A DNA stretch of 64,000 nucleotides from positions 1,495,001 to 1,559,000 of the forward strand of contig NC_015709.1 in the NCBI RefSeq assembly GCF_000218875.1, read 5' to 3'. Positions 5,050 to 51,141 of this stretch are shown in pieces. Within the stretch, counting starts at the first letter, position 1. Every line of letters begins with the position of its first letter. The stretch comes from Zymomonas mobilis subsp. pomaceae ATCC 29192 (lineage in GTDB: Bacteria > Pseudomonadota > Alphaproteobacteria > Sphingomonadales > Sphingomonadaceae). Under the pieces are notes generated by a model that saw nothing but the letters and a program-made list of their open reading frames with translations, did not search any database and was not told where the DNA came from. The translations under genes and the position numbers were made by a program.

Positions 5050-6099
5050 TTGAAAAGTAAGATTTTCGGTCTGGTAGCTATTGTTATCATTTTTATCCTC
5101 CTTGTTTTTAGCTTTATGAGAACCCAAAAATCAGGGAAGATCGGCCGGAAATTGACGGATACCGGGGGACATATCGTGACCGTACCGGTTCATCCTAAAC
5201 GCTTTGCCGATTTATGGTTTCCGATTGATGAAGTCATGGTGATGCTAGGCGCCAGTGATAAGGTTGTTGTTACGGTTGGCCGTTCCCAAACAATGCCATG
5301 GCTTTTCCATATGGCACCGGAACTTAATAAAGCTATCCAAATAAACGGGCCAGTCCCTAATGCTGAAACGTTACAGGCAGCTGCTGTCGATGTTGCTTTT
5401 ACGGCATCTGATTCACCGGCTACGGCAGCGGTTAACCGTATCGGTATCCCAACCCTTGAGGCCGGATTTACTAATACGCATTCGTTTGGACGCGCTATTA
5501 ATTTAATCGCAGATGTTGTTCATACCGATACAGCTCATCAGGCAGCCGATCGATATAATAAAGAAGTAACCCAAGTGGTTACCGCCATTCGTGCCAAAAC
5601 TGATCTTTTGTCTTTGTCAGCGCGTCCGCGTGTGCTTCATATTCTCTCGCTTGCACCGCTCCAAGTAGACGGGGATCACACTATTATCGACGAATGGATA
5701 ACTGTTGCAGGGGGGCGAAACGCGGCTGTTGGGGTGACGGGTAATAAAAAGGTTGTTTCTCCTGAACAGTTGGCACAATGGGACCCCGATATTATCATTT
5801 TAGGCGCTTCGGCAAGGCATAATAATATAGATGAAGCCGTCTGGAAAAATCTGCGGGCTGTACGTGATAAAAAGGTTTTTCGTAATCCATCAGGTGCCTT
5901 TGCATGGGATCGCTACGGGCTAGAATATCCGCTTCAATTGCAATGGACAGCAAAGCTACTTCACCCTGATTTATTTTCGGATATTGATATTCGTATCAAA
6001 ACCGCCGAATTCTATCGTAATTTTATGCATTATTCTGTGTCCCCAAAAGAAACGGATGCTATCCTTGCAGCCCTGCCGCCCGCAGGAAATATAAAATGA
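5050..6099 (+). CDS. FecB/BtuF-type ABC transporter substrate-binding protein
   Basis: A 349-residue periplasmic binding protein of the helical-backbone class used for siderophores, haem, cobalamin or, in MolA-type systems, molybdate. It begins with TTG, supported by GGAG 7 nt upstream. An N-terminal hydrophobic segment (residues 5-24, VAIVIIFILLVFSF) is a signal peptide or membrane anchor with no lipobox Cys. The two lobes are recognisable by the first-lobe KVVVTVG strand and second-lobe SPEQLAQWDPDIIILG. The gene overlaps the next one by 4 bp. The substrate cannot be read from sequence. It is probably iron-chelate, with MolABC-like metal oxyanion as an alternative. Confidence 0.8.
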   Translation: MKSKIFGLVAIVIIFILLVFSFMRTQKSGKIGRKLTDTGGHIVTVPVHPKRFADLWFPIDEVMVMLGASDKVVVTVGRSQTMPWLFHMAPELNKAIQINGPVPNAETLQAAAVDVAFTASDSPATAAVNRIGIPTLEAGFTNTHSFGRAINLIADVVHTDTAHQAADRYNKEVTQVVTAIRAKTDLLSLSARPRVLHILSLAPLQVDGDHTIIDEWITVAGGRNAAVGVTGNKKVVSPEQLAQWDPDIIILGASARHNNIDEAVWKNLRAVRDKKVFRNPSGAFAWDRYGLEYPLQLQWTAKLLHPDLFSDIDIRIKTAEFYRNFMHYSVSPKETDAILAALPPAGNIK

Positions 6100-7112
6100 C
6101 TAAATTCCGAGCAGGAAATGGCCTTATATTTGTCTGTATTATCCTTTGTCTTATCTTAGGTGTTTTTTCTCTTTGTATTGGCCGTTTTTCTATTTCTATT
6201 CTCGAATTGTGGCATTTTATATGGTCTTTTCAGGATAGTGAAATCACGTCTCGAAGCCAGGCTATCCATTCCGTCATTTTAGATTCACGCTTGCCTCGTA
6301 TCTTGGCCGCGCTTTGTGTAGGGGCTGCGCTTTCTACCTCGGGCGCCGCTTATCAGGCCGTTTTTCGTAACCCTTTGGTTTCTCCCGGATTACTGGGTGT
6401 TTTGGCAGGATCTGGTTTTGGCGCTGCGCTCTCGATTGTTGCTGGTCTTGATCCTTTCGGTATTCAACTCTGTTCTTTTCTGGGCGGTATTAGTGCCGTC
6501 GTTATTTCTATTCTGGTCCAGCGTATGGTTGGAGCGGGCTCTATTTTAATGTTGATTTTTGGCGGTCTTGTCAGTGCGGCCTTGTTTACAGCCTTATTAT
6601 CCATTCTAAAATATATTGCTGATCCCGAAAGTCAGTTACCAGATATTGTCTTTTGGTTATTAGGTAGTTTGACGCAAATAAGTTCAGGTCAGCTTCTTAT
6701 GACTGCTTTTCCTGTTATGGGAGGAATCTTTGGACTGACTTTAAGCGGACGAATATTAGATGCATTATCTATGGGCGATGATGAAGCCCATACGCTTGGT
6801 GTGCATGTCGAATTTATTCGCTACGCAGTGATCGGTGCGGCCACTGTTCTAGCGGCTTTAACCGTTTCCATGGCTGGAATGATCGGCTGGGTAGGATTAG
6901 TTGTGCCTCATATCGCCCGTTTGTTGGGTGGCCCTTCCAATCGAAGACTTATTTTTCTCAGCGCTATTATTGGGGCCATGTTTCTTTTGCTTTCTGATGA
7001 TCTGGCCAGAACCTTGTCGGCTGAAGAAATTCCGGTAGGTATTATAACCGATCTGGTAGGCTGTATGCTGTTTTTAGGTGTTTTGGCATTATCTAAACAG
7101 GTACAGGCATGA
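6096..7112 (+). CDS. FecCD-family ABC transporter permease
   Basis: A 338-residue inner-membrane permease with about ten hydrophobic segments. Family landmarks are RLPRILAALCVGAALSTSGA near residue 66, the NPLVSPGLLGV block, and GMIGWVGLVVPHIARLLGG near residue 268, which includes the loop that couples to the ATPase. Its ATG overlaps the stop of the binding-protein gene (ATGA), and its own stop overlaps the ATPase start, so the three genes form one tightly coupled operon. It forms the translocation channel, presumably as a dimer. The substrate is the same unresolved metal chelate or oxyanion. Confidence 0.9.
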   Translation: MTKFRAGNGLIFVCIILCLILGVFSLCIGRFSISILELWHFIWSFQDSEITSRSQAIHSVILDSRLPRILAALCVGAALSTSGAAYQAVFRNPLVSPGLLGVLAGSGFGAALSIVAGLDPFGIQLCSFLGGISAVVISILVQRMVGAGSILMLIFGGLVSAALFTALLSILKYIADPESQLPDIVFWLLGSLTQISSGQLLMTAFPVMGGIFGLTLSGRILDALSMGDDEAHTLGVHVEFIRYAVIGAATVLAALTVSMAGMIGWVGLVVPHIARLLGGPSNRRLIFLSAIIGAMFLLLSDDLARTLSAEEIPVGIITDLVGCMLFLGVLALSKQVQA

Positions 7113-7888
7113 CGGCTGTTTTAACCACTAAGCATCTTGTTTATCATCGGGGTGCTCGCCTTATTCTGGATGATATAACCTTTTCGCTTTGCAAAGGGGA
7201 ATTGGTTGCCTTGCTCGGCACAAATGGTGCTGGAAAATCAACTCTATTGCGGCTGGTACTGGGGCTTTTAAAGCCAGATAAAGGCGAAACACGTCTTGAA
7301 GGACAACTTTTAACAGAGCTTGGCCGGCGGCAAATGGCTCAGCTGATTGCCTATGTTCCGCAAGGTCATGTGCCTGTATTCCCTTATACGGTTGAAGAAA
7401 TCGTTTGTATGGGACGATTGCCCTATGCCTCTTTTGGACAAGCCGTAAACCAACAAGATAAAACCGTCGCTCATCAGGCATTAGAGTATCTTTCTATTGG
7501 CCACCTCGCTTTACGTCCTTATACAGAACTTTCCGGCGGTGAACGGCAAAGTGTGCTGATAGCGCGGGCTTTAGCACAAGGGGCACGGATGCTCATTCTC
7601 GATGAGCCTGAAACCGGTCTTGATTTCGGGCAGCAGCTCCGTTTAGCGGCTTTATTGCAGCGGCTTACTAGCGAAGGCTATACCATATTGGTAACTACTC
7701 ATGATCCCTTACACGCTCGCCAAATATTCTCACGGGCTATTTTATTGGAATCGGGACGAATATTAGCTGATGGACCTGCACATCAGGTGCTGACTAATGA
7801 AGCTATAAAAGCACTCTATCATATTGATGAGGCGCTCTTTCGAAAATGGGCGCCGGGTATCGAAAATAGCACCTATTTTAAATTATAA
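7109..7888 (+). CDS. FepC/BtuD-type ABC transporter ATPase
   Basis: A 259-residue ATP-binding subunit that energises the FecCD-type permease. Visible motifs are Walker A GTNGAGKST (near residue 38), the signature LSGGERQSVLIARAL (near 140), Walker B MLILDEPETGLD and the switch His in TTHD. It is the last gene of the operon, overlapping the permease by 4 bp. The short tail after the nucleotide-binding fold carries no regulatory domain. The assignment to this importer is secure by linkage, but the substrate is not. Confidence 0.9.
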   Translation: MTAVLTTKHLVYHRGARLILDDITFSLCKGELVALLGTNGAGKSTLLRLVLGLLKPDKGETRLEGQLLTELGRRQMAQLIAYVPQGHVPVFPYTVEEIVCMGRLPYASFGQAVNQQDKTVAHQALEYLSIGHLALRPYTELSGGERQSVLIARALAQGARMLILDEPETGLDFGQQLRLAALLQRLTSEGYTILVTTHDPLHARQIFSRAILLESGRILADGPAHQVLTNEAIKALYHIDEALFRKWAPGIENSTYFKL

Positions 7889-14596: not shown

Positions 14597-14606
14597 GGGA
14601 AAAGAC

Positions 14607-17146: not shown

Positions 17147-17853
17147 CCGAACAAAAGGACGAAGCTGAAGAGCGTAAAGAGGCCGTTGAACAAGATGCCT
17201 TGTTTCGGGCTGATGAAGCGATGCATGCCGATGATAAAGCCGAAAAGGAAAAACCCTTTTTCATTCATGGCTTTGTTTTAGCAGTTTTCTGTTTAGGTTT
17301 TGGGGCGTTGTTGGCGCTTACCTATCATCTGACGGTCAAGACGATTGCCGAGCGGGGCGTTGAAGATCAGCAGGCCTCTTTGTCGCAGGTTATTCCTGAC
17401 TCCATTCATGACAATGATATTTCGGCCAACCCGATCCACGTTAAGGATGCTGACGGTCGGGATGTTGAAGTATTCCGCGCTCTAAAAGAGGGGCATGTGA
17501 CAGGCGTTGCCTATGAGATTTTAGGCAGTGGCTATAGTGGTGAAATCCGGCTGATGATGGGGGTGGATGATCAGGGTAAGATTTTGGGTGTCAGAACCCT
17601 TGCCCACAAAGAAACCCCGGGTCTTGGCGATAAAATCGAAGCCACGAAATCCGATTGGATTCTTCGCTTTACCGGTCTTTCTAGCAGCAATCCGCCTGCT
17701 GAAAAATGGAAGGTCAAAAAGGACGGAGGTCAATTTGACCAGTTCTCGGGCGCTACCATTACACCTCGCGGTGTGGTAGCGGCGATCCACCGGGGTTTGC
17801 AGTTCTTTGCGACTAATAAAAATCGTCTGTTGGAGAATCCTGATGTCAAATGA
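17143..17853 (+). CDS. rnfG: Rnf complex FMN-carrying subunit RnfG (copy A)
   Basis: A 236-residue subunit with a charged N-terminal cytoplasmic stretch (about 38 residues), one membrane helix (FVLAVFCLGFGALLALTYHL) and a periplasmic FMN-binding domain. The flavin-attachment motif SGATIT is intact near residues 202-207, so this is a proper substrate for the ApbE encoded upstream. Other landmarks are GYSGEIRLMMGVD and LAHKETPGLGDKI. The unusually acidic N-terminus (EQKDEAEERKEAVEQ) is longer than in many relatives. It overlaps rnfD by 4 bp and rnfE by 11 bp. Copy B is identical in protein. Confidence 0.93.
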   Translation: MTEQKDEAEERKEAVEQDALFRADEAMHADDKAEKEKPFFIHGFVLAVFCLGFGALLALTYHLTVKTIAERGVEDQQASLSQVIPDSIHDNDISANPIHVKDADGRDVEVFRALKEGHVTGVAYEILGSGYSGEIRLMMGVDDQGKILGVRTLAHKETPGLGDKIEATKSDWILRFTGLSSSNPPAEKWKVKKDGGQFDQFSGATITPRGVVAAIHRGLQFFATNKNRLLENPDVK

Positions 17854-18514
17854 TTATCTCCGCATTGCCAAAGACGGGCTTTGGGATAACAATGGTATCC
17901 TAAGCATGTTGCTCGGGCTTTGTCCCACGATGGCGGTGACTACCAGTGCCACTAATGCTTTAGGTATGGGGCTTGCGACCGCTGTTGTTATGGCCGCATC
18001 TAATATTCTGGTCTCTTTATTTCGGCATAACATCACGTATGAAGTGCGCGTGCCGGTTTATATTCTGATCGTCGCTGCGATGGTGACCTTGGTCGATATG
18101 GTGATGAACGCCTATATGCATCCGATGTATAAGGTGCTTGGCCTGTTTATTCCCTTGATCGTGTCCAACTGTTTGCCGCTGGCCCATTTGGAAGCCTTTG
18201 CGGGTAAAAAACCCCCAATAGCTTCTTTGGTCGATGGTCTTTTTGCCGGACTGGGTTTTACGCTGGCGCTGACCGTCATCGGCGGTGTGCGGGAAATAAT
18301 AGGATCGGGTACCTTGTTTTCTAATGCCGCCTTATTGCTGGGACCAAGCTTCAGTTTCCTTGAATGGCATGTCTTGCCTTCTGATTGCCACATCTTGATG
18401 ATGGTTCTTCCTCCGGGGGGCTTCCTTATCACAGGGTTAGTCTTGGTCGGTAAAAGAATGATCGACGTGGCTCAAGGTAAAGAAATTGCCATGTCCGGTG
18501 CCCATGGGGTTTAA
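17843..18514 (+). CDS. rnfE: Rnf complex subunit RnfE (copy A)
   Basis: A 223-residue integral membrane subunit, paralogous to RnfA. The ATG at 17843 (MSNDYLRIAKDGLWDNNG) is chosen over an upstream in-frame ATG because it gives the family N-terminus and follows TTGGAGAATCC. The two Cys motifs, LSMLLGLCPTMAVTT near residue 25 and VSNCLPLAHLEAFA near 107, complete the intramembrane [2Fe-2S] site with RnfA. It overlaps the end of rnfG by 11 bp. One synonymous difference from copy B lies at 18395. Confidence 0.93.
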   Translation: MSNDYLRIAKDGLWDNNGILSMLLGLCPTMAVTTSATNALGMGLATAVVMAASNILVSLFRHNITYEVRVPVYILIVAAMVTLVDMVMNAYMHPMYKVLGLFIPLIVSNCLPLAHLEAFAGKKPPIASLVDGLFAGLGFTLALTVIGGVREIIGSGTLFSNAALLLGPSFSFLEWHVLPSDCHILMMVLPPGGFLITGLVLVGKRMIDVAQGKEIAMSGAHGV

Positions 18515-18525
18515 AGGTAAAAACC

Positions 18526-18798
18526 ATGAAAATATCTGTTGTCTATGCCAAACCCGAACGCCAGCTCTGGCTGGAATGTGAGGTCAAAGACGGCGCTACC
18601 GTCAAAGAAGGTATCGAGGCTTCCGGTATCTTGGCCCGTTCCCCCGATATTGACCTTAATACCCAAAAGGTCGGCGTCTTTGGTAAGGCTATAAAACTTG
18701 ATGCCCCCCTTGAAGAAGGTATGCGCATCGAAATCTATCGTCAGGTCACTATCAACCTTAAATCTGTCCCTAGACGAAAAAAAGCCTCTGCCGAATAA
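18526..18798 (+). CDS. rnfH: RnfH-family ubiquitin-fold protein (copy A)
   Basis: A 90-residue small beta-grasp protein (RnfH/UPF0125): KISVVYAKPERQLWLECEV, VKEGIEASGIL and VGVFGKAIKLDAPLEEGMRIEIYR are conserved. Its biochemical role is unknown; it is regularly the last gene of rnf operons. This copy ends ...INLKSVPRRKKASAE. Copy B ends ...IDPKSVPRRKK, because of two nearby substitutions (18754, 18758) and a different 3' junction. It is convergent with modC, with only 24 bp between stops and no clear terminator. Confidence 0.9.
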   Translation: MKISVVYAKPERQLWLECEVKDGATVKEGIEASGILARSPDIDLNTQKVGVFGKAIKLDAPLEEGMRIEIYRQVTINLKSVPRRKKASAE

Positions 18799-18822: not shown

Positions 18823-19917
18823 TCAGGTTGCTTTTATTTTTGAAGAATAACACCCTGAGACAGCGGTTATTTCAATATGATTTATTCTAAGTTGTATTTT
18901 CTGACCTTGTTTTAAATTGAGCTGTTGGGTTGCTAAGTCTGACACATAGGCTTTGAATAATACTTCGTGGTTTGCTTTTCCTAAACGCAAAGTGATAAGA
19001 TTGTTATGGAGAGTGGCTGCGTTTATGGCTACAATATAGGCATTAGGGGTATTGAGCAGTGAACCGCTTTCTGTTCCAACAGGCGCAACGCTAATATCTT
19101 TTGCATCTATCCATAATCGGTATGCCTTACCTGTCACAATTGAAGGAACAGCTACTTTTAATTGTCCACCTGCCACTTCAAAAAGGGCTATCCCATAGGC
19201 GGAATCATAGGCAATACAGTGGGCTTTTATCACCGAATAAGCCTCTTGTTGTGCGGCTTTTGTATCTAATTTCCCTTTATGTAAAAAAATTTGCCGGTCT
19301 GATAAACGGCGTATTTCAAGGTGATCATGGCTGACATAGAGAATAGGTAGCGCCAGTTGATCGCGTAACTGTTCGAGAAAAGGCATGATTTTCTCTCTTG
19401 CTTCTTGATCCAATGCAGAGAGGGGTTCATCCATCAATAATAAGCGCGGTTGAGAAAGTAACGCTCGCCCAATAGCGACACGCTGTTTTTCTCCCCCTGA
19501 GAGCGCTTGTACCGATCGTTTTAATAACGGAATCAGCCCTAAAAGTTCAGTAACCTCTTCAAATAACAAACCAGAAGAAGGCCTCCGCCCTCCAGTGGCA
19601 TAGAGCAAATTGCCTATTACATCACGATTAGGGAATAATCGGCTATCCTGAAAAACATATCCGATAGGACGTTGATAAACCGGTAAAAAATGGGTTTTAT
19701 CCTGCCATATAACACCATCAACCGAACAATAACCTTCTTGAAAATGATGCAATCCTGCAATAGCCCTCAACAGGGTGGTTTTACCACATCCAGACGGACC
19801 AGAAAGTGCCGTTACTCCGCGTGCTGACACCGTAAAAGCGACATCTAAATTGAAACTGCCCAATTTTCCCCGAAAGGCAACGTCAATTTTTTTGTCAGTT
19901 ATAGGGTTAATCACCAA
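18823..19917 (-). CDS. modC: Molybdate ABC transporter ATPase ModC
   Basis: A 364-residue ATPase for high-affinity molybdate import. Motifs are Walker A GPSGCGKTTLLRAI (near residue 40), Q-loop region YVFQDSRLFP, signature ALSGGEKQRVAIGRALL, Walker B LLLMDEPLSALD and switch His in YVSHD. The C-terminal 120 residues form Mop/TOBE-like domains (IVAINAATLHNNLITLRLG, LNLKQGQKIQLRI) that sense molybdate and close the transporter. It lies 7 bp after modB. It supplies Mo for FeMo-co and molybdopterin. Confidence 0.95.
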   Translation of the reverse strand: MVINPITDKKIDVAFRGKLGSFNLDVAFTVSARGVTALSGPSGCGKTTLLRAIAGLHHFQEGYCSVDGVIWQDKTHFLPVYQRPIGYVFQDSRLFPNRDVIGNLLYATGGRRPSSGLLFEEVTELLGLIPLLKRSVQALSGGEKQRVAIGRALLSQPRLLLMDEPLSALDQEAREKIMPFLEQLRDQLALPILYVSHDHLEIRRLSDRQIFLHKGKLDTKAAQQEAYSVIKAHCIAYDSAYGIALFEVAGGQLKVAVPSIVTGKAYRLWIDAKDISVAPVGTESGSLLNTPNAYIVAINAATLHNNLITLRLGKANHEVLFKAYVSDLATQQLNLKQGQKIQLRINHIEITAVSGCYSSKIKAT

Positions 19918-19924
19918 GCATCTC

Positions 19925-20605
19925 TTATCTTATTGCATGACCGAAATAGCGATCAATTAGATTAACGGCGAGGATAACGATAAAAGCGAACAAGACCATG
20001 CCACCTGCCAGAATATTGGCTTCATGCCAATGGGAGGCTTCTACGGCATCATAAATAGCTATCGATAATACTTGTGTTTGACCCGGAATATCGCCCCCGA
20101 TCATTAAAATAACACCGAATTCTCCCACAGTATGCGCAAAGCCCAAAACGGCACCTGTTATTAATCCTGGGCGAGCTAAGGGAATAGCTACAGTCAAAAA
20201 AGCTTTAAATGGTGATGCGCGTAAAGTTGCCGCCGCTTCCATGGGGGCTGTTCCAATGGTTTCAAAGGCGTTGCGAACAGGCTGGACAACAAAAGGGAGC
20301 GTATAGATAATAGATCCTAATAAAAGACCACTAAAAGAAAAGGCGAGGGTACGCGCTCCCCATAATTGCGCTAACCAGCCTCCAGGCCCATTTGGTCCTA
20401 AAAACAGTAGTAAATAAAAACCGAGTACCGTAGGCGGTAAAACTAAAGGCAAAGCGACAAGCGTATTGATAATTTCGCGCCACCATTTTTTTGTTCGGGC
20501 TAACCACCACGCAAGAGGTGTCCCGAATAATAATAAAATGAAGGTTGTAGAAAAGGCTAGTTCAAGAGTTAGCCGAATAGTCGGCCAGAGATCGGAAGTC
20601 TCCAT
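19925..20605 (-). CDS. modB: Molybdate ABC transporter permease ModB
   Basis: A 226-residue inner-membrane permease with five or six helices. Recognisable blocks are [40 protein letters not shown] near residues 51-70, and the coupling loop [28 protein letters not shown] (written in two parts: [16 protein letters not shown] and [12 protein letters not shown]) near 124-150. The end [14 protein letters not shown] is a hallmark of ModB/CysT-type permeases. It lies between modA (21 bp upstream) and modC (7 bp downstream). Confidence 0.95.
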
Positions 20606-20626
20606 CCTGTTTTCTTTTTATTCGGT

Positions 20627-21406
20627 TTAAAAATGGTAACCATAATGGCTGATGATAGAGCGGCTTTCATCACTTTTTAAAAATGCCATAAAAGCTCGTG
20701 CTGCTGCATTATTCTGAGATTTATTTAATAACACAGCATCTTGCCGAATGGGGGTATAAAATTTTTCAGGTACTCGCCATTGCGAACCTTCAGAAACGCC
20801 CTTCATCTGAGAAAGAGAGACAAAGCCTAGCTCGGCATTTCCGCTGGAAACGAACTGCCATACTTGGATAATATTAGTTCCAACTACAAATTTAGGCCGT
20901 AATTTTTCTAATAAATGTAGATTCTGCAAGGTTTCAATAGCTGCACGGCCATAAGGCGCGACATCTGGATTACAAACGGCAAGGCGCGTGAAGGCCTGTT
21001 TCTCTAAGGTTTCAACCGTTGCCGGAAAATTTTTGTCACGGCTCCATAATACGAGTTGTCCGATGGCATAGGTAAATCGACTATCTGAAACAGCTAAGCC
21101 TTCTTGCACTAATTTTTCAGGTCGGCCATTGTCCGCCGATAAAAATATATCAAAAGGTGCCCCTTGTTTTATCTGGGCATAGAGCTGTCCTGTGGAGCCA
21201 GAACTGAGACGAATCGTATTCCCCGTTTTATGCGTAAAAGCTGTTATTAATTCTTTTGCAGTATCGCTAAAATTAGCAGCAACGGCTATACGTAATTCGG
21301 CTGCATTTGCAGGCATTACAAATAATGATACACTGATTATATTAATAATAATTTTAAAAATATTCATTTTTTTATTTTTAAAAAATATTTTTATCCATCC
21401 TGACAT
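20627..21406 (-). CDS. modA: Molybdate-binding protein ModA
   Basis: A 259-residue periplasmic binding protein that delivers molybdate to ModBC. After a signal peptide (hydrophobic IIINIISVSLFVMPANA) come the family blocks RIAVAANFSDTAKELITAF, RLSSGSTGQLYAQIKQGAPFD (residues about 65-85), DIFLSADNGRPEKL and FVSLSQM. The oxyanion-contact Ser of the AANF and SGSTG loops are in place. The ATG at 21406 has a GGA 8 nt upstream; an internal ATG at 21367 gives a shorter signal but lacks a clear ribosome site. It is the first gene of modABC and divergent from the mop genes. Confidence 0.93.
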   Translation of the reverse strand: MSGWIKIFFKNKKMNIFKIIINIISVSLFVMPANAAELRIAVAANFSDTAKELITAFTHKTGNTIRLSSGSTGQLYAQIKQGAPFDIFLSADNGRPEKLVQEGLAVSDSRFTYAIGQLVLWSRDKNFPATVETLEKQAFTRLAVCNPDVAPYGRAAIETLQNLHLLEKLRPKFVVGTNIIQVWQFVSSGNAELGFVSLSQMKGVSEGSQWRVPEKFYTPIRQDAVLLNKSQNNAAARAFMAFLKSDESRSIISHYGYHF

Positions 21407-21541: not shown

Positions 21542-21754
21542 ATGTTGAAACTTAGTGCGCGCAACCAGATAAAAGGTAAAATTGTTAAAATTGCTAAGGG
21601 GGCTACAACCTCCCATGTAACTTTAGATGTTAACGGTACTACACTTATGGCTGCTATTACTAATGAAGGTGTAGAAGATCTGAAGCTTACGGAAGGCAAA
21701 TCAGCGATTGCTGTTATCAAGGCCTCTGATATCATGGTTGGTATCGACGAATAA
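21542..21754 (+). CDS. mop: Mop molybdenum-pterin-binding protein 1
   Basis: A 70-residue single-domain Mop protein (MLKLSARNQIKGKIVKIAKG ... AITNEGVEDLKLTEGKSAIAVIKASDIMVGID). Mop proteins form hexamers that bind several molybdate ions and act as cytoplasmic molybdate stores. It is divergent from modABC by 135 bp, so both may respond to molybdate. No clear ModE-type operator was found in the gap. A second, close paralogue follows. Confidence 0.92.
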   Translation: MLKLSARNQIKGKIVKIAKGATTSHVTLDVNGTTLMAAITNEGVEDLKLTEGKSAIAVIKASDIMVGIDE

Positions 21755-21896: not shown

Positions 21897-22109
21897 ATGT
21901 TGAAATTAAGCGCACGCAATCAATTCAAAGGTAAGATTTTTAAAGTTATTAAAGGAAAGACAACCTCGCATGTTATCCTTAATCTTAATGGACTTCCTGT
22001 AATGGCGGCGATCCCCAATGAAGAGGCAGAAGAACTTCAGCTACTTGAAGGCAAAGCGGCCATCGCGCTTATAAAAGCCTCAGATATTATTATTGGCGTT
22101 GAGGAATAA
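21897..22109 (+). CDS. mop: Mop molybdenum-pterin-binding protein 2
   Basis: A second 70-residue Mop domain protein, clearly paralogous to the first (same MLKLSARNQ.KGKI start and the same SDI..G..E end). It diverges in the middle (KVIKGKTTSHVILNLNGLPV). It has its own GGGG ribosome site upstream. Differences in the loops could change the molybdate-binding sites or allow mixed hexamers with the first copy. Likely role: molybdate storage supporting nitrogenase. Confidence 0.92.
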   Translation: MLKLSARNQFKGKIFKVIKGKTTSHVILNLNGLPVMAAIPNEEAEELQLLEGKAAIALIKASDIIIGVEE

Positions 22110-22633: not shown

Positions 22634-23563
22634 TTACGGCTCTACATTATCAAGGAAAGAGACCGAAGGGACAAAAAACAAACAGCCCGTTATTGGACGA
22701 CTGAAATCAAGTAAGCGGTCATAATTTCCTTTCGGTTTACCTACGAACATGTTTTCCAGCATTTCTTCCGTTACCGAGGGCGAGCGAGCGTAGCCGATAA
22801 AATAAGTACCAAATTCACCTTTACCAATTTCGCCAAAAGGCATGTTATCGCGTAGAATACTAACCTCTTTTCCATCGCGAGTAACGATATTTAAGATATT
22901 ATGGGCATAATCCGGCTTGTTCTCATCGTCGAGTTCAACATTCGATAATTTTTTTCGACCGATAATTTTTTCTTGAGTTTCAATTGGAAGCTTATTCCAA
23001 CCCTCAACATCATGGAGATATTTTTGAACGATGACATAACTGCTATTTTTGAAATCTGGATCTTCAGAATCAATCAGCACGGCTTCACAAGCGGCTTCAT
23101 TCTCCGGATTTTCAGTGCCATCAACAAAACCGATTAGATCGCGGTCATCAAAATATTTAAAACCATGGACTTCGTCAACAACAGTCGCAACAGGACGAAG
23201 ACGCTCCATAATAAGTGTAGCCATTTCAAAGCACATATCCATGCGGGTCGCTCGGATATGAAAAAGCAGATCACCTGAGGTTGAAACAGCGTGATGAACG
23301 CCTTTAATTTCTTTGAAAGGATGTAATTCTTTTGGACGAGGGCCAGAAAAGAGACGATCCCATGCTGCCGAGCCAATGCCTAAAATACAAGAAAGTTGTC
23401 CATCGGGATCACGAAATCCGACGGTGCGGCGCAAAGCCGAGAGATCAGCACAAAAAGCCCGAATGTTTTTTTCGATTTCAGCGCCTTGATGGATATTAAG
23501 CACTAGAAAAATGGCCGCAGGTGTCAGAGGTGTTACAACGGACTGAGGAATTGGATCAGACAA
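22634..23563 (-). CDS. Dyp-type haem peroxidase
   Basis: A 309-residue peroxidase of the Dyp family. The GXXDG distal motif is visible as GFVDGTENPENEA (Asp as acid-base catalyst, about residue 146), and the C-terminal FGEIGKGEFGTYFIGYARSP region fits the haem pocket with its conserved Arg and Gly-rich turn. No Tat or Sec signal is seen, so it is cytoplasmic and may use H2O2 to protect oxygen- and peroxide-sensitive enzymes such as nitrogenase. It is flanked by gaps on both sides and appears monocistronic. Confidence 0.9.
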   Translation of the reverse strand: MSDPIPQSVVTPLTPAAIFLVLNIHQGAEIEKNIRAFCADLSALRRTVGFRDPDGQLSCILGIGSAAWDRLFSGPRPKELHPFKEIKGVHHAVSTSGDLLFHIRATRMDMCFEMATLIMERLRPVATVVDEVHGFKYFDDRDLIGFVDGTENPENEAACEAVLIDSEDPDFKNSSYVIVQKYLHDVEGWNKLPIETQEKIIGRKKLSNVELDDENKPDYAHNILNIVTRDGKEVSILRDNMPFGEIGKGEFGTYFIGYARSPSVTEEMLENMFVGKPKGNYDRLLDFSRPITGCLFFVPSVSFLDNVEP

Positions 23564-24397: not shown

Positions 24398-25267
24398 TTA
24401 TTCGGGTTTAAGATGTACTTGGACATCACAAGGTTTAGCTGAATAAGGGGCTGATGTTACAATAATATCAGCGCCAGCTTCCATATAAGCCGTTATATTG
24501 TTAGGATTAATGCCACCCGCCGCCGCTAAAATTGGTGCTTGTTCAAAGAATTGAAGTTCTGTTCGTAATTCGGCTATTTGCTGTGGTGAAAATTTTTCTA
24601 ATTGTAAAACATCAGGAGAAAATTTTGCAGCAGATATGGCTTGCTCTATCGTATCAACTTCAATGGTAATTTTTCTTTCAGGGACTGTCTGACGCAGTTT
24701 CTCTATCGCTTGATCTGTTTTCCCTTGGATAAAAGCGAGATGCTCGGGAAAAACAAGCACAGTTTCAGAAAGATTTATGCGATGCATAACGCCGCCACCC
24801 GCTAAGACGGCCCGGATAGCTAAGGATCGGGTTAAAGGGGCCGCTTTACGGGTACAGGCGACAACTGCTGTAGGTCGAATTCTTTTAGCGCGTGTCACCA
24901 TGCTATGCGTAGTGGTAGCAATGCCAGCACACCATTCCATGAGCGTCTGGGCTGATTTCCATCCCAAATGAAGCATACTGGCGGAGCCTGTTGCTTCAAT
25001 TAAAAGCGTTCCAGAGGGGGCGGGGCTACCAGAAGGTAATATATACCGGATACTAGCACCTAATCGTTCCAAAATGGCGACCGCTTCTTCTGTTCCACTC
25101 GCAATTTGATCATCACGCGCTGTAAAAGTAATATGAGCCGGTACCGCGCCAATGCCTAAAGCCCGTGTTGTCAAATCACCAAGGGCAGCATCTTCAGCCA
25201 ATAACGCATCTATCAAACCATTTGAAATCGGCAATAAAACAGTAGCCAAATGAGAGGGGCTGGGCAT
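24398..25267 (-). CDS. modD: ModD, quinolinate-phosphoribosyltransferase-like molybdenum protein
   Basis: A protein of about 289 residues related to NadC. The ATG at 25267 is chosen over an upstream one because AAGGAGGAAAC lies directly before it. Seen are EDAALGDLTTRALGIG (N-terminal), the Arg/Lys-rich phosphoribosyl site (ACTRKAAPLTRSLAIRAVLAGGG), EVDTIEQAISAAKF, LQLEKFSPQQIAEL and AAAGGINPNNITAYMEAGAD. ModD proteins are found beside molybdate genes and not with nadA/nadB; a function in Mo use is inferred from linkage. It follows the ModA-like gene after 135 bp and could be part of a TonB receptor-binding protein-modD unit. Confidence 0.85.
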   Translation of the reverse strand: MPSPSHLATVLLPISNGLIDALLAEDAALGDLTTRALGIGAVPAHITFTARDDQIASGTEEAVAILERLGASIRYILPSGSPAPSGTLLIEATGSASMLHLGWKSAQTLMEWCAGIATTTHSMVTRAKRIRPTAVVACTRKAAPLTRSLAIRAVLAGGGVMHRINLSETVLVFPEHLAFIQGKTDQAIEKLRQTVPERKITIEVDTIEQAISAAKFSPDVLQLEKFSPQQIAELRTELQFFEQAPILAAAGGINPNNITAYMEAGADIIVTSAPYSAKPCDVQVHLKPE

Positions 25268-25402
25268 AGCCGTTTCCTCCTTAGATATTTGTAACAAGCA
25301 GAATAGTTATTAGTTATAACTTCAAACTTACAAAAGGGATTTTATTACAAAAATAATAAATGAATGTTTTGTTGTAATAATATCTGAGAAAAATAGAAAA
25401 TT

Positions 25403-26260
25403 TTAAGGTTCAAAATGATATGCCCTTAAATTTTTTTTTGCCTCCTCACTCATTAAATAGAAAGCGAACTGGAAGGCCGCCGCTCTTTGATTCGGGTCTT
25501 TTGATTTTAAAAGAACGCTACTGCCATAAACAATAGGGGCCGCCAGCGTATCAGGAATTCTTGTCTTGGTAAAACGCGGATCTGTTGTCTTATTGTGAGC
25601 GCTACAATAGCCAATAAAAACATCGATTTTTTGGCTGGCCAGAAAATACTCAACAGGATTCCATCCCAGTGGGACAGATGGGCTGAATTTACCCCCAACA
25701 ATAGGTCGGGCTTTTTTTTGTAATATGTCTTGAGACGAAGTATTGCTCTCTCCGATTTTTGCAAAAAACGCCATAGCGTAATCTCCACCCGGATCGTTCC
25801 CTGGTGTTGATGTGCCAATTTTGACAGAAGGCCTTAATAAAACATCCACCATATTATCAGCGGTAAGATCAAAGCCCGCACGAGTAGTAAGGCAAAGTGT
25901 ATTATGCGTAAAAATGACGGGTGGTGCTGCTATCTTCTCATCTGAAAGTTGTTGCGGATAGCGCATATTGGCTGAAAGATAGACATCGACAGCTTCATTT
26001 TTTTTGATGCGGGAGAATAGTAAACCGGCAGGTCCAAAAGAGGTCTCTATTTTTATACCTGTCTTGCTTGAAAATTGCTGGGCAATGTCTGTCAAAGCCC
26101 CCCTGAGACTACCTGCTGCCCATACTTGAAGTGTCGGCATAGGTTGAGAAAAGGCTGTAATATCCTGTTGTGGAGCAGGTGTGACTGGAGCTGCATTTGC
26201 ACGCACCGTAAATGCACATCCAATGAGCGTTATCGCTATAAGGGAAAGCGTCGGCTTCAT
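25403..26260 (-). CDS. ModA-like periplasmic binding protein coupled to a TonB receptor
   Basis: A 285-residue protein with a signal peptide (LIAITLIGCAFTVRANA) and a type II binding-protein fold similar to ModA: LQVWAAGSLRGALTDIAQQF, ETSFGPAGLLFSRIKK (the usual SGS loop is SFG here), AVDVYLSANMRYPQQL. It overlaps the TonB receptor by 4 bp (ATGA, 26257-26260). No permease or ATPase genes accompany it, so it may hand its ligand to ModBC or to the FecCD-type system. It is clearly distinct from the ModA at 20627-21406. Ligand: molybdate, tungstate or a related oxyanion is inferred. Confidence 0.8.
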   Translation of the reverse strand: MKPTLSLIAITLIGCAFTVRANAAPVTPAPQQDITAFSQPMPTLQVWAAGSLRGALTDIAQQFSSKTGIKIETSFGPAGLLFSRIKKNEAVDVYLSANMRYPQQLSDEKIAAPPVIFTHNTLCLTTRAGFDLTADNMVDVLLRPSVKIGTSTPGNDPGGDYAMAFFAKIGESNTSSQDILQKKARPIVGGKFSPSVPLGWNPVEYFLASQKIDVFIGYCSAHNKTTDPRFTKTRIPDTLAAPIVYGSSVLLKSKDPNQRAAAFQFAFYLMSEEAKKNLRAYHFEP

Positions 26261-28461
26261 AAATCAACCTGCATCGAAGCCCGCACTGAACGCGGTGCGC
26301 CTAAGGTTCCAGTACCGCTACCTGTGCTATTGTAACCATTTTGGCTACTCGGTGTGATATTAGCCCAATAATGTGCATCAGTTATATTATTGACATTAAG
26401 ACGCCATGTCATATGGGTACCTCTAACCTCTCTTGAATAGCGGATGCCTAGATTAGCTACTGTATAACCCGCGACATAATCCGTATTGCTATAGTTACCG
26501 GGTTTTCGATTGGCATAATTAATATCGGCTGTCAGAGTGACTGATGGCATAATTGGTAGATGATATTCTAACAGTGCATTAAAAACGACAGGGGATAGCC
26601 CCAAAACTTTTTTATCATTTGTCAGTGCCGAACCGGTGTTGTGTACTTCTGGATCTAATAAGGCAATGCCGCCGTAAACTGTTAAATATCGTGTGATCGA
26701 TCCATCAGCCATAATTTCGACACCACGATTTCTTTGATTACCATGCAGTGCATAATAGCCATCGGCTCCAATATAAGCATAGGGACGGCGGATCTGATAA
26801 AGCGCCGCTCTCAAATTAATCCTATTTAAATTGATTTTATAACCTATTTCCCATTGAGTTGATCGGTAAGGCGACAAGCTTTCCCCAGCATTACGTGTTC
26901 CTGTTGGCGCATTATCCCCTTGCTGCAAACTATTAGAATAGGTGAAATAAGCTGTCATATTTTGTTTGGGTTTATAGAGTAAACTAGCGATAGGGCTTAT
27001 TCCACTGGCATTATAATGCCCTGTCACGCCACCAGACTTATTGTAATTAGTCGTACTAATCCAACTTTGACTAGCAACGGCTTGAATAGCCCATTGGGGG
27101 GTAAACTCGATCTTGTCACCAAACGTAATAGATTGCTGTGTCGTATGAACGGAGCGATATCTATTGGTAAAGCTAGGAAATGTTGGCTCAGAAAAAATCT
27201 GTGGGTGATTAATAGAGGCTGTGCCCAGGGTTACGGGGCCCTTTTGATAGGGCGTATAGCGATCCCAGAAAAAACCTGAGGTCCCCAGTAGAATGGAATG
27301 GGCTACGCTACCAGTATGTAAGGAACCATTTAAGGTAACATTTTCACTTAGAATAGTATCAAGACTATAAGTAGTTATGGCTGCGGTACTTTTATAATCT
27401 CCCTCGTTGTTAATAAGGGTATTATTGATTGCTGTTGAAGCGCGGTCATTTCTTTCCCGTAGAATGCTGGCTTTTAAATGCCAATTTGCGTTAAAATCAT
27501 GGCGTAAACTACCACTTACAATAAAGGTTTTGTTGTTATCACCTGCATAAGACTGACCATATCCTACTGTTTTAGGATTAGGCGCGGTTGGAAAATTTAC
27601 ATTCGAAGCTAAAGCAAAGGTGCCGGGCAGTCCCATATCAACATAATGATAGCCACTAATATTCGTCTCAAGGACGGTATCCGGTGAAAAATGTACATCG
27701 AAAGCAAGACTTGCCAACTGGCGTTTTAGCTGACTATTTTTAATATAGTATTTTCCATCCTGTTCCAGAAGGTTAAGGCGATAGCCAAATTTTTTCTCTG
27801 GATCAAAAAAACCTCCGACATCAATATGTCCGGACCACGTATTTTTAGATAAATATTGAACATTAATTTGGCGGAGATTTTTTTCAGTAGGACGTTTTAA
27901 TACATAATTAAAAGTACCAGCCGGACTGGTCGGACCATAAAGCGCCCCTGAAGGACCATTTAAAACTTCGATTTGCTCAAATTGTTCAGTTGGATAATCG
28001 GTAGTTGCAGCAATATTTAACCCGTCAATAAATGTATTTTGAACAACCCCAGCTTGCATACCGCGCGTTTGTGGTCGGATATTTTCCCCTTGGATAGAGG
28101 GTATAAGACGAAACACTTCACGGACACTTATCAGCTGCTGATTTTTTGATAAAGCAACAGGTACGGCATCAACAGAATAAGGCGTATCAAGGACAGAGGT
28201 TTTTCCAAAGGGCGTAAGGTTGATTTTGTTAACGCGGTAAGGTGAAAGTGTGACCAACAGATCTTTTTCTGTATTTTCTTCTGCATAAGCCATTTGAGAG
28301 GAGAATAGAGTGAGCGTCGCAAAACTTAAGACGACTAGATTTCTCTTTTTATTGAATACTTTAAGATAATATTTAGAATATTTTGAGTCGATAGTATAAT
28401 TTTGAATCTTATCAGATATTCTTGTTTTTATTGTGTAGGCTGAATGTTTTATCATTATCAT
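26257..28461 (-). CDS. TonB-dependent outer-membrane receptor 1
   Basis: A 734-residue receptor: signal peptide (VVLSFATLTLFSSQMAYA near residues 43-60), plug domain (PYSVDAVPVAL, LIPSIQGENIRPQTRG, VLNGPSGALYGPTSPAGTF) and a 22-strand barrel ending with a terminal aromatic pattern (RSVRASMQVDL). It is overlapped by the ModA-like gene, so the pair should act on the same ligand. Plug blocks match those of the second receptor at 47750. The first codons ATGATAATGATAAAAC coincide with half of a Fur-like box. A nif terminator separates it from nifW, so it has its own promoter. Ligand: a molybdenum or iron chelate is inferred. Confidence 0.88.
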   Translation of the reverse strand: MIMIKHSAYTIKTRISDKIQNYTIDSKYSKYYLKVFNKKRNLVVLSFATLTLFSSQMAYAEENTEKDLLVTLSPYRVNKINLTPFGKTSVLDTPYSVDAVPVALSKNQQLISVREVFRLIPSIQGENIRPQTRGMQAGVVQNTFIDGLNIAATTDYPTEQFEQIEVLNGPSGALYGPTSPAGTFNYVLKRPTEKNLRQINVQYLSKNTWSGHIDVGGFFDPEKKFGYRLNLLEQDGKYYIKNSQLKRQLASLAFDVHFSPDTVLETNISGYHYVDMGLPGTFALASNVNFPTAPNPKTVGYGQSYAGDNNKTFIVSGSLRHDFNANWHLKASILRERNDRASTAINNTLINNEGDYKSTAAITTYSLDTILSENVTLNGSLHTGSVAHSILLGTSGFFWDRYTPYQKGPVTLGTASINHPQIFSEPTFPSFTNRYRSVHTTQQSITFGDKIEFTPQWAIQAVASQSWISTTNYNKSGGVTGHYNASGISPIASLLYKPKQNMTAYFTYSNSLQQGDNAPTGTRNAGESLSPYRSTQWEIGYKINLNRINLRAALYQIRRPYAYIGADGYYALHGNQRNRGVEIMADGSITRYLTVYGGIALLDPEVHNTGSALTNDKKVLGLSPVVFNALLEYHLPIMPSVTLTADINYANRKPGNYSNTDYVAGYTVANLGIRYSREVRGTHMTWRLNVNNITDAHYWANITPSSQNGYNSTGSGTGTLGAPRSVRASMQVDL

Positions 28462-28657
28462 TTGTCAACCCTGTGTTTCTATTCACAAGGGTATTAAATT
28501 TTTTAATTTTATTAGTCAATTATTTTTTGTAATTTAATAACATTTTTTATAAAAAACATATTATATTATATATTTTTCATATTAAAATACTGGAAAATCA
28601 GTTAGATATACGATTAAAATGATTACTTAAAATTAATATGAAAAGACTTATAAATAC

Positions 28658-28693
28658 AAAAGAGGCTTGTGGTTAAAACAAGCCTCTTTTTTT
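28658..28693 (-). terminator. Rho-independent terminator after nifW
   Basis: AAAGAGGCTTG at 28659-28669 pairs with CAAGCCTCTTT at 28679-28689, with A/T runs on both outer sides. It sits 11 bp after the nifW stop and closes the iscA-nifU-nifS-nifV-nifW unit. The symmetry suggests it can also act on the plus strand. Confidence 0.85.
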
Positions 28694-28703
28694 ATTACTT
28701 GCG

Positions 28704-29042
28704 TTACTGCTTTTCTGGAGGGAGTTTTAAAGAAGATAAACTAACCATGGGTAAAGTAGCAGGTTTGACAGCATTTTTGTGGACCTGAAACACTCTTTCT
28801 TCCATCGGTGAAGATTTTGTAAAATCAGTGTAAGCTTGAGTCAGATGGCGTTTATAAAGGGTCCGCTGTTCGTCATCATTTAATGTTTTTTCACTCTCTT
28901 GGCTATCTTCAAGGTAAGTGTGCATCCGTCGTAGAATATGGAGGCGGGCAACGTTAAGAATTTTAGAATCATAGGGGACTTCAAGCGTGTTGAAAAACTC
29001 TTCAGCAGAAGAAAGTCCACGTAGGGTATCAACAAAAGACAT
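28704..29042 (-). CDS. nifW: Nitrogenase-stabilising protein NifW
   Basis: A 112-residue protein that protects or helps mature the MoFe protein, mainly under oxygen. Conserved blocks are LRGLSSAEEFFNTLEVPYD near the start, VARLHILRRMHTYL, and KRHLTQAYTDFTKSSPMEERVF. It is the last nif gene before a strong terminator and lies 97 bp after nifV. Length is normal for the family. Confidence 0.92.
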   Translation of the reverse strand: MSFVDTLRGLSSAEEFFNTLEVPYDSKILNVARLHILRRMHTYLEDSQESEKTLNDDEQRTLYKRHLTQAYTDFTKSSPMEERVFQVHKNAVKPATLPMVSLSSLKLPPEKQ

Positions 29043-47749: not shown

Positions 47750-50026
47750 ATGAAAAAATGGCGGTCCTGTAAAAGGTTTGTCTTATGCTATGCCGTGCTC
47801 TCTTTTGGCTTTGCGGCAGAAGGGTTTGCCGAACAACCAATTATTAAAGAGACGCATGACAATGCTGTTAGTAATGAGGGGGATTCAACTGACACAAACG
47901 ATAACAGGTCTTCGTCCAAGACAACTAAAAATAATACTATTGAACCTTCTGAATCTCCAAAAGATATTACAGTTAATGCCAAGATGACAAATGGTACAGG
48001 GGCACGTACATCCTTACCTGTTGTTAATTTTGGCCCATTGGGTGACATGAAACCAGAAAATGCGCCTTTTTCTATTCTCAGCGTTCCCCATGATGTAATT
48101 CGCAACCAACAGGCACGTAATGTCAATGATCTGATGCAATATTTGCCATCGGTTCAATTGGAAATGAGAGGTGATCCCGGAACTTCTCGACCGCAGTCTC
48201 GTGGTTTTGAATCAGACGTCATCGCCAATAGCCGGATGGATGGCTTTAACATTGCGACGACAACGCCTTATGCGGCAGAACAATTTGATAATCTGCAGGT
48301 CTTAAACGGATTAAGCGGCGCTATCTATGGTCCTCAAAATCCGGCGGGTACTTTTGAATATACGCTAAAGCGTCCGACTACCGAAATGATGGAAGATTTT
48401 TCTGTGGGTATCGATTCACGCGGTACCGTAACAGAAGCTGCTGATATTGGTGGATCAACGGGTAAGGATAACTGGTTCGGATATCGTGTTAATCTTGTTC
48501 ATGGGGCCGGTTCCAATTACGTTCGTACGGGGCATATAAACCGTAATTTAGTCAGTGGCAGCTTTGATATTCATGTCGATTCAAAAACGGTTATTGAATT
48601 GAATGCCAGTCACTATAGCTACGATCAGCGGGGTGGCGCACCAGGATTTTCTTACAGCAATAATATTCAGCTTCCAACAGCGCCAGATATAAGCACCCCT
48701 TATCTCGGGCAGAGCTATGCCGGTTATAATGCCAAAACGGATACGGCTTCTGGAAAAATCAAACATCAATTTAATGAAAACTGGAGTGTCGTCGCCGGCG
48801 GCTTATGGCAGAATGCGTTTCGTGACGTATTTTCAAATGCCAATACGCTAACAGATAATTATGGCGATTATAAACAGACTATTGCTTCTGCTGCGACAGC
48901 CTATCGTTTTAAAATCGGTAGTAATCTTGCTTATTTAAATGGACGTGTTCACACGGGTTTTGTGACCCATGATTTGGCTTTAGGTACCAACGGCTATGTC
49001 ATGAGTAATTATAACCCTACCAGTAGCCAAACTTTTACGCTGGGTAATAGTAATCTTTATAATCCAACCAAATTTTCTAGCGTACGTCCCCATTCATCAG
49101 GTAGCTATCGTTCTGCTATCGCCCGTAATCAGTCATTAATTGTCAGTGATATGATTACTTTTAACAAGCATTGGTCTATCTTAGGGGCATTCAGTTGGAG
49201 CTGGATGACATCTTCAAGTTGGAATAAAGCGGGTACTCGAACCGCTCATAACTATACCCAAGGGGCCTTTAGTCCGAATACAAGTTTGATTTATCATCCC
49301 CTTGAAGGTCATACGGCCTATTTCACTTGGGGACGCAGTTTACAACAAGGTGTGACTGCACCCGCAGGTTCTATCAACCAAGGCCAAATTCTTAATCCTT
49401 ATGAAAGCGAAGAATACGAACTCGGCTATAAGGTGAAATGGGAAAAACTGTCCTTAAATGTAGCAGGTTTTCGCATGACCCGTCCTTATGCATACATGGA
49501 TTCCTCGACGGGGGTTTATGGTATGTACGGAACCCAGCGTAACTGGGGTTTTGAATTCCAGATGGCTGGCCATATCCGACATGATCTATCGATTTTAGGG
49601 GGCGTGACTTGGCTGGACGCCAAGGTTGGATCAACAGGCGATGCTACAACATCGCATAAAGAAATTGTGGGTGTACCCCCTGTTCAATCTAATATCTTGA
49701 TTGACTATACTTTGCCATTTTCAAAAGAGAGTTTGGCAAATGGTTTAGCCATCAATGGTAGCGTGCACTATACTGGAACGCGAGCTGCAAATAATACCAA
49801 TACGACCTATGCCCCACAATATGTGACCGCGAATATTGGTATCCGTTATCCTTTCAAAATGGCTAATAAACCATGGGTCGCTCGTTTCACTGTTAACAAC
49901 CTTATGAATGAGCATTACTGGGCATCGGTCTACCCTTCTTCTATTAATGGTGCCGCTGGCGGGACCAATAGTGCTTATGCTGGGTTACCTCGTACTTATC
50001 AATTTACCTTGGAATGCACTTTATAA
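47750..50026 (+). CDS. TonB-dependent outer-membrane receptor 2
   Basis: A 758-residue receptor with a signal peptide (RFVLCYAVLSFGFAAEGFA), a Ser/Asn/Thr-rich linker, plug domain (LMQYLPSVQLEMRGDPGTS, VLNGLSGAIYGPQNPAGTF) and barrel ending RTYQFTLECTL. It is a paralogue of receptor 1: the plug blocks VLNG.SGA.YGP..PAGTF.Y.LKRPT match almost position by position. It lies between nifA and the second rnf operon, facing the same way as rnf, and is closed by its own strong terminator. Its ligand is unknown; location suggests an iron or molybdenum chelate needed for nitrogen fixation. No sigma-54 site is seen before it. Confidence 0.88.
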   Translation: MKKWRSCKRFVLCYAVLSFGFAAEGFAEQPIIKETHDNAVSNEGDSTDTNDNRSSSKTTKNNTIEPSESPKDITVNAKMTNGTGARTSLPVVNFGPLGDMKPENAPFSILSVPHDVIRNQQARNVNDLMQYLPSVQLEMRGDPGTSRPQSRGFESDVIANSRMDGFNIATTTPYAAEQFDNLQVLNGLSGAIYGPQNPAGTFEYTLKRPTTEMMEDFSVGIDSRGTVTEAADIGGSTGKDNWFGYRVNLVHGAGSNYVRTGHINRNLVSGSFDIHVDSKTVIELNASHYSYDQRGGAPGFSYSNNIQLPTAPDISTPYLGQSYAGYNAKTDTASGKIKHQFNENWSVVAGGLWQNAFRDVFSNANTLTDNYGDYKQTIASAATAYRFKIGSNLAYLNGRVHTGFVTHDLALGTNGYVMSNYNPTSSQTFTLGNSNLYNPTKFSSVRPHSSGSYRSAIARNQSLIVSDMITFNKHWSILGAFSWSWMTSSSWNKAGTRTAHNYTQGAFSPNTSLIYHPLEGHTAYFTWGRSLQQGVTAPAGSINQGQILNPYESEEYELGYKVKWEKLSLNVAGFRMTRPYAYMDSSTGVYGMYGTQRNWGFEFQMAGHIRHDLSILGGVTWLDAKVGSTGDATTSHKEIVGVPPVQSNILIDYTLPFSKESLANGLAINGSVHYTGTRAANNTNTTYAPQYVTANIGIRYPFKMANKPWVARFTVNNLMNEHYWASVYPSSINGAAGGTNSAYAGLPRTYQFTLECTL

Positions 50027-51104: not shown

Positions 51105-51141
51105 GCCAAGAGAGTAAGCTTAGGGGAAAGGGACTGTCGCT

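Follow-up and report, generated by a model that had tools for sequence, protein, structure and literature searches.

The nif region of Zymomonas mobilis subsp. pomaceae ATCC 29192 contains a gene for a TonB-dependent receptor (here TBDT1) that runs directly into a gene for a stand-alone binding protein resembling ModA (here ModA2). The arrangement raises the question of whether the two proteins provide an outer-membrane route for molybdenum (Mo). We examined this locus in a window of 64 000 nt (contig NC_015709.1, positions 1,495,001 to 1,559,000), which is part of a 2.06-Mb Zymomonas genome carrying nif genes. An earlier note made from this DNA had proposed that the receptor, the ModA-like protein and the product of modD together form a Mo uptake unit. 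On sequence evidence, TBDT1 and ModA2 are a conserved pair, whereas modD is probably not part of it. With a little less than even confidence, we read the pair as the outer-membrane and first periplasmic steps in the import of chelated Mo for nitrogenase.

The receptor-ModA2 pair and its neighbour modD

The TBDT1, ModA2 and modD reading frames are all intact, lie on the minus strand at the expected positions and are situated between nifW and the Mop and modABC genes, as had been described (Table 1). A gene for a Dyp-type peroxidase, which the earlier description did not mention, also intervenes in this order. Dyp genes are likewise found near receptor homologues in Pantoea At-9b (L033) and Granulicella (L039). 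The genes for TBDT1 and ModA2 share the sequence ATGA at 26257-26260, which confirms the 4-bp overlap noted before, and they are apparently translationally coupled. No permease gene was found beside ModA2, again in agreement with the note, and the modABC operon of the window has a separate modA.

The pairing is not confined to this genome. A tblastn search of 72,556 plasmid records with TBDT1 gave 845 records with a match, nine of which were inspected. The top matches among the 845 were in Methylocystis iwaonis (58.8% identity) and Polymorphobacter megasporae (52.7%), the third reaching 44%, and in both species the receptor gene sits directly before a ModA2 gene. Both plasmid pairs had already been met from the ModA2 side before this receptor-first search retrieved them. 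A survey starting from ModA2 gave two more pairs (loci L027 and L028, in genomes G746 and G505), with receptors of 50% and 49% identity; no further receptor above 39% identity was found at E 1e-120 among 385 genomes of the class. Four of the five pairs have stop and start codons that overlap by 4 bp, as ATGA or GTGA, and in the fifth a gap of 2 bp separates them. In a phylogenetic tree, the five receptor-linked ModA2 proteins and one unlinked sequence form a group (support 97/93). A single clade of the linked proteins was not rejected (approximately unbiased test, p-AU 0.24), but in the tree itself the unlinked L061 groups with ModA2 of the window. Another sequence, L022, sits on a very long branch, and its membership is doubtful. 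The proposal that the receptor and the ModA-like protein form a unit is thus supported by a pairing that recurs in four other genomes or plasmids.

The same cannot be said of modD. Its product is a clear member of TIGR01334 (cut-off 178.85 bits) with both QRPTase domains, and a Shine-Dalgarno sequence, AAGGAGG, favours the ATG at 25267 over the TTG at 25297, which places the start 135 bp behind ModA2. Of the proposed trio, only the receptor and ModA2 recur together elsewhere; no modD is labelled at the other four loci. ModD exceeded its cut-off in three of the 13 genomes searched, namely the three Zymomonas. In the sibling genomes G581 and G621 (L053; L054/L055), in which ModA2 is absent at E 1e-30, nifW and modD are adjacent with nothing between them. 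The pair was therefore either inserted into an older arrangement of nifW and modD or lost from it, and modD is best seen as a resident neighbour. We rejected a trio that includes ModD. Also rejected was a foreign origin of the pair as judged by base composition, because neither the G+C content (TBDT1 40.2%, ModA2 43.9%, window 44.1%) nor that of third codon positions (31.6 for TBDT1 and 35.3 for ModA2) is distinctive.

ModA2 and the genes that accompany it

ModA2 matches SBP_bac_11 (148.7 bits) and, above the cut-off of 62.5 bits, the modA model TIGR01256 (83.3 bits), although the latter match covers only profile positions 1-133 of 217. The match to PRK03537.1-4 (217.6 bits) is under the cut-off of 288. 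The ModA2 group forms a branch apart from true ModA (support 100/100), and a profile search of solved sequences placed ModA first (84.2 bits), with ferric-binding proteins at 29.8 bits or less. A structure was predicted from a three-row alignment (ModA2 and ModA of the window, and L001); the model used has a mean predicted local distance difference test score (pLDDT) of 81.4, and three of the five models had means below 60. This model matches ModA-type chains with Z scores of 20.1-25.7 (for example 1atg, 24.5 over 216 residues at 2.7 Å), WtpA with 19.0-23.1, sulfate-binding proteins with 21.9-22.2 and ferric-binding proteins with at most 19.0, and the metal-citrate protein MctA is among the lower matches (18.8).

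ModA2 had been described as having a divergent anion loop, and this holds for the family: where ModA has a Ser-containing loop, its members carry GP[AS]G, and they share a further motif, STPxxDPxGDY. If the side-chain ligands of Escherichia coli ModA are Ser12, Ser39 and Tyr170, as we take them to be, profile alignment indicates that ModA2 retains the first Ser (S51) and the Tyr (Y218) and has GPAG at the second Ser loop. ModA2 therefore has the fold of the ModA of ModABC and a partial TIGR01256 match over the cut-off, but differs from it in its separate branch, its lost Ser loop, the lack of a ModBC of its own and its coupling to a receptor; by these comparisons the ModA fold includes ModA2 as a branch of its own. 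The signal peptide of ModA2 contains LIGC, a possible lipobox. A lipoprotein form is uncertain, because the N-termini of the L010, L027 and L028 proteins lack this motif.

ModA2 is uncommon. At E 1e-30 it was found in nine of 385 genomes of the class, three of 396 of the order and 17 of 398 of the phylum, or 26 different genomes together. In each of these we surveyed about 9 kb on either side of the gene (L019, L021 and L075 being cut by contig ends), with labels such as MolABC and Mop assigned, where annotation was lacking, to stop-to-stop frames by phmmer matches to a few references. MolABC-type genes, counted where MolB matched with at least 200 bits, are near ModA2 in 11 genomes (L017-L020, L025, L026, L069-L073), and TupA- or TupB-like genes without MolABC in five (L021, L062-L064, L066; L062 and L064 also have modABC). 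One or other importer type is therefore present in 16 of the 26, in raw counts taken without a random-gene baseline. TupB-like permeases were confirmed in eight loci (L017, L018, L020, L021, L062-L064, L066) and TupA-like proteins in three; all are under the curated Tup cut-offs, the permeases being above that of NF038017. TBDT1 or its homologue adjoins ModA2 in three genomes, those of the window, L027 and L028.

Among plasmid records, ModA2 matches were found in 105, 52 of them from Pantoea, and 12 were inspected, the two receptor pairs described above included. Rhizobium WSM2304 carries a MolABC-ModA2 operon, and R. lusitanum has the same arrangement by labels; MolABC-type genes occur with Mop near ModA2 in Shinella and Indioceanicola, formate dehydrogenase and Mo cofactor genes in two Mesorhizobium, and nifQ at a distance of 3.3 kb in Azospirillum B510. 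Overall, Mop, glp, fdh and mobA are among the plasmid neighbours. Pantoea BRR-3P has ModA2 with a MolA-type binding protein alone, and no Mo gene was seen at the ModA2 loci of Azospirillum TSH58 and Alloyangia. One further inspected record, from Faunimonas, is a chromosome, on which MolABC and Mop are again near ModA2 by labels. These contexts support a link between the ModA2 family and genes for uptake of Mo or tungsten (W). At four loci (L018, L021, L063, L066), ModA2 is near tup-type genes and a divergent protein like the C-terminal part of PRK14498 (molybdopterin biosynthesis; 120-171 bits, below cut-off), which is possibly a regulator.

A candidate inner-membrane partner

As ModA2 has no permease, the earlier note had suggested that it passes its ligand to ModBC. 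We consider this doubtful, because the same window holds a better candidate, a MolABC-like type II importer (Table 1), and this is likely to be the inner-membrane partner of TBDT1 and ModA2. The genome has two FecCD permeases, and the one in this cassette has HI1471 (MolB) as its best match among solved sequences, followed by FhuB (167.1 bits), and no NCBIfam molybdate model matched the cassette. The Haemophilus influenzae system (HI1470-1472) has the same three parts, but the binding protein of the window matches HI1472 with only 59.5 bits, and the available portion of the published account (PMC4031551) describes neither a receptor nor an extra ModA-like protein in that system.

Genes of this type also occur beside relatives of TBDT1. 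In two Pantoea plasmids the receptor homologue is followed immediately by a gene for a MolA homologue of 43% identity; in Chimaeribacter a MolA homologue of 41% is the divergent neighbour of the receptor gene. In Pantoea At-9b, which was reached through the receptor search, the receptor is flanked on one side by the MolA homologue and on the other by ModA2, the latter accompanied by its partner binding protein. No modB is labelled at the other four receptor-ModA2 pairs.

Indirect evidence for Mo transport by the cassette is strongest in the siblings G581 and G621. Both retain the cassette, with 59-75% identity and at a distance of about 5 kb from modD; nifO is labelled next to it in G621 and not in G581. 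Both siblings have nifD (845-848 bits). Their best ModB matches (E 2.5e-9 and 2.7e-9) are below the cut-off, a negative that depends on assemblies 99% complete and masked in places, whereas the genome of the window (G000) has a full ModB. Another importer must therefore supply Mo in the siblings, and the MolABC-like cassette, which lies near nif genes, is the obvious candidate.

Table 1. Coordinates of the features discussed, numbered from the first nucleotide of the window.
Feature	Position	Strand	Remarks
TBDT1, TonB-dependent receptor (plug and barrel, siderophore-receptor subfamily)	26257..28461	-	734 aa
ModA2, stand-alone ModA-like binding protein	25403..26260	-	285 aa; signal-like N-terminus
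modD	24398..25267 (open frame from TTG 25297)	-	TIGR01334 392.3 bits
nifW	28704-29042		upstream of TBDT1
Terminator-like hairpin after nifW	28658..28690	-	13-pair stem and T run
AT-rich region expected to hold the TBDT1 promoter	28462..28657	-	
Dyp-type peroxidase gene	22634-23563		between the Mop genes and modD
Mop genes (two)	21542-21754, 21897-22109	+	TIGR00638 75.9 and 64.5 bits
modABC, ordinary molybdate importer	18823..21406	-	
modA of modABC	20627-21406	-	TIGR01256 230.8 bits
modB	19925-20605	-	TIGR02141 243.2 bits
modC	18823-19917	-	name rests on position and sequence only
MolA-like binding protein, candidate partner	5050..6099	+	4ovk 108 bits; HI1472 (MolA) 59.5 bits
MolB-like permease (FecCD family), candidate inner-membrane partner	6096..7112	+	HI1471 215.6 bits; FecCD 259.1 bits
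MolC-like ATPase	7109..7888	+	ABC ATPase of heme/B12/siderophore group
TBDT2, paralogue of TBDT1	47750..50026	+	38% identical; between nifA and second rnf copy; TIGR01783 227.6

Ligand, control and biological setting

Free molybdate passes through porins, so a TonB-dependent receptor would serve a purpose only for a Mo complex of larger size. We propose that TBDT1 would use TonB energy to take up a Mo-siderophore, or another Mo complex too large for porins, and that ModA2, translated from the same message, would be the periplasmic binder of the Mo oxyanion or of the complex. The MolABC-like importer would be the most likely point of cytoplasmic entry, with ModABC as a parallel route, and Mop may store the imported metal. 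What the sequences show is that overlapping receptor and ModA2 genes recur together, that ModA2 belongs to a Mo/W-associated branch of the ModA fold and that siblings lacking ModB retain MolABC near nif; what is carried, what chelates it, how it is handed over and which way it moves are inferred. We favour Mo over iron chelates as the import of the pair.

Several observations weigh against this proposal. The nearest solved relatives of TBDT1 are FemA and BauA (138-181 bits), the ligands of which are iron siderophores. In Pantoea At-9b, EfeUO and a Dyp peroxidase near the 44% receptor homologue indicate an iron setting. The closest MolB among all labelled loci (294 bits) lies beside a 38% receptor in Paracoccus, together with a methyltransferase and with no Mo gene annotated within 14 kb, and MolB-like cassettes may therefore carry other metal chelates. 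H. influenzae MolBC-A is a low-affinity importer that works at high molybdate, according to the available part of the report (PMC4031551), and such a property does not suit scavenging unless the branch in the window differs. Only the window, among the five receptor-ModA2 loci, has nif and Mo genes nearby. No such gene is labelled or annotated in L009, L010, L027 and L028 (18-25 kb each, with partial annotation), and G505 and G746 gave no nifD match. The ModA2 relative with the top score, L061, lacks an adjacent receptor gene, and receptors in its genome reach no more than 29% identity. The neighbour counts, besides being raw, include five genomes with only a MolA-type binding protein near ModA2 (L065, L067, L068, L074, L075) and two with none of the sought genes (L022, L061). 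Finally, as described below, a NifA/sigma-54 promoter was not detected before TBDT1 or MolABC.

The hairpin that follows nifW probably separates it from the TBDT1 transcript, so that TBDT1 is probably transcribed from a separate promoter within the AT-rich intergenic region (20.2% G+C over 28462-28703). We searched the window for NifA sites (TGT-N10-ACA) and for -24/-12 elements (at least 9 of 11 positions). Both were found for nifH, nifB, a promoter at 32.4 kb and the second rnf copy, and no -24/-12 site at this threshold was found before TBDT1, modD or the MolABC genes. An upstream activator-like half-site at 28472-28487 has no -24/-12 partner, and NifA control of TBDT1 was therefore set aside. 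A NifA site before Z. mobilis modD is given in the available part of a report by Tsoy et al. (PMC4999443); none was seen in this window. Just ahead of the TBDT1 start, a short imperfect inverted repeat, CCCTTGTG...CACAGGG at 28469-28491, could cover the ribosome site or act as an operator.

An iron chelate is the first alternative to be weighed against Mo. TBDT1 would then be a xenosiderophore receptor serving the large iron demand of nitrogenase, and ModA2 would bind iron or an iron-anion complex or be a passenger. The receptor itself, with its Plug (47.3 bits) and barrel (113.4 bits) domains, exceeds the cut-off of the siderophore-receptor model TIGR01783 (234.3 against 223.5 bits) and shares the plug-barrel subfamily of FemA and BauA, and the EfeUO and Dyp genes of Pantoea point the same way. 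It differs from those receptors, whose ligands are ferric by name, in being paired with a ModA-type protein, and we know of no FemA- or BauA-type receptor so paired. Published accounts, in the portions available, call the nif-cluster receptors of Z. mobilis ZM4 iron-associated (PMC8594446) and interpret a cluster of Acidithiobacillus ferrooxidans as bifunctional for iron and Mo (PMC2631029). However, the ModA2 profile hits ModA (best 84 bits) far above ferric-binding proteins (30 bits or less), the model fits ModA-type chains better than ferric-binding ones, though sulfate-binding proteins reach 22, and importer genes of Mo/W type are near ModA2 in 16 of the 26 genomes. The best Fur box match before TBDT1 (12 of 19 positions) was equalled by 47% of shuffles and is thus not above chance, while another receptor of the genome (L042), for which start codons were guessed, has a better match (15 of 19, and 16 on the other strand). 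We regard iron import by the pair as less likely than Mo import, though as the most probable of the alternatives.

The two proteins might also act separately. TBDT1 would import some chelate, ModA2 would add periplasmic binding of molybdate or tungstate for MolBC or ModBC, and the coupling would reflect shared regulation. In 23 of the 26 ModA2 genomes the best receptor is at most 41% identical or is absent at E 1e-60, as this explanation would have it. The close spacing of the genes in all five known pairs, which overlap or lie 2 bp apart, and the grouping of the receptor-linked ModA2 proteins in the tree nevertheless make separate action improbable in our judgement. A different chelated oxyanion or metal complex as ligand, for example tungstate, vanadate or metal-citrate, seems very improbable, despite the TupA- or TupB-like neighbours in eight of 26 loci, all under the curated Tup cut-offs, and the MctA fold match (Z 18.8), since Mop and ModD accompany the Mo-nitrogenase island of the window and the alternative nitrogenase of the genome is Fe-only, not of the V type.

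TBDT1 is not the only receptor in the nif region. Its paralogue TBDT2 is retained in G581 at 85% identity, whereas the G621 homologue is split over two frames (L059), and G581 has a different receptor-like gene between a SIR2 gene and nifH. ZMO1822 and ZMO1815 are the receptors named for ZM4 in the available part of the published work (PMC8594446). The receptor-like gene and the 85% TBDT2 of G581 fit these two, so TBDT1 seems to be neither of the published receptors. In ZM4 under N2-fixing conditions, ModD and receptors with ExbB/ExbD go up, as far as the available text of that study reports (PMC8600466).

Other features of the window lie apart from the pair. The rnf operon is present twice (13286-18783 and 50497-55994), with 99.9% identity over 5498 bp and five differences. 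Only the second copy has a NifA-type site (50304) and a perfect -24/-12 match (50384), both just outside the repeat, and the first lies behind apbE-like and RseC-like genes, which were named by eye. The duplication could provide one constitutive and one nitrogen-controlled copy. A group I intron is present at 60249-60446 (Rfam RF00028, 58.6 bits).

TonB-dependent Mo import had been presented as outside the established pathways. The concept is not new, since a nitrogenase-dedicated Fe/Mo uptake cluster was proposed for A. ferrooxidans in 2008, with receptors and a ModA-like protein beside nif (PMC2631029). As far as the available description allows comparison, that cluster resembles the window in having siderophore-type receptors, a ModA-like protein and iron-type ABC genes near nif. 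It differs in comprising 13 genes, with TonB genes and three binding proteins, where the window has a two-gene overlapping pair with ABC genes some 17.5 kb away rather than adjacent. Pseudomonas aeruginosa also has an outer-membrane molybdate step involving ModA, but in the available account this ModA is secreted by the type VI secretion system and the outer-membrane protein, IcmP, is a metalloproteinase (PMC8602904), in place of a TonB-dependent receptor and a predicted periplasmic ModA2. In a literature search of partial coverage, we found no description of a coupled receptor-ModA2 unit, of a ModA2 branch with Mo/W neighbours or of the link to MolABC, and no named receptor for Mo complexes.

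The genome also encodes an Fe-only nitrogenase cluster (L056, 11469-18850; G000:C1 about 1123470-1130850; also L057), with an anfH-type nifH match, anfD (1082.5 bits), anfG (155.8), anfK (914.6), anfO (191.7) and a NifA-like activator. G621 has similar genes, and G581 has no second nifD-type gene of that score. The presence of both Mo and Fe-only nitrogenases in one organism gives a reason to scavenge Mo.

Mo-binding catechol siderophores are known. In its fullest form, which we hold as possible at clearly less than even confidence, our proposal is of a dedicated TonB-dependent Mo pathway, in which a receptor for Mo chelates (molybdophores or captured catecholates) is translationally coupled to ModA2 and ModA2 delivers to MolABC. 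Such a pathway would be mobile between alphaproteobacteria and would have been inserted in the nif island of one Zymomonas lineage, for the benefit of Mo-nitrogenase when free molybdate is scarce. For the uptake of organically bound Mo by diazotrophs, the pair supplies a specific candidate receptor and binding protein in a genetically tractable genus. For the family as a whole, the prediction is that ModA2 proteins should bind oxyanions of Mo or W.

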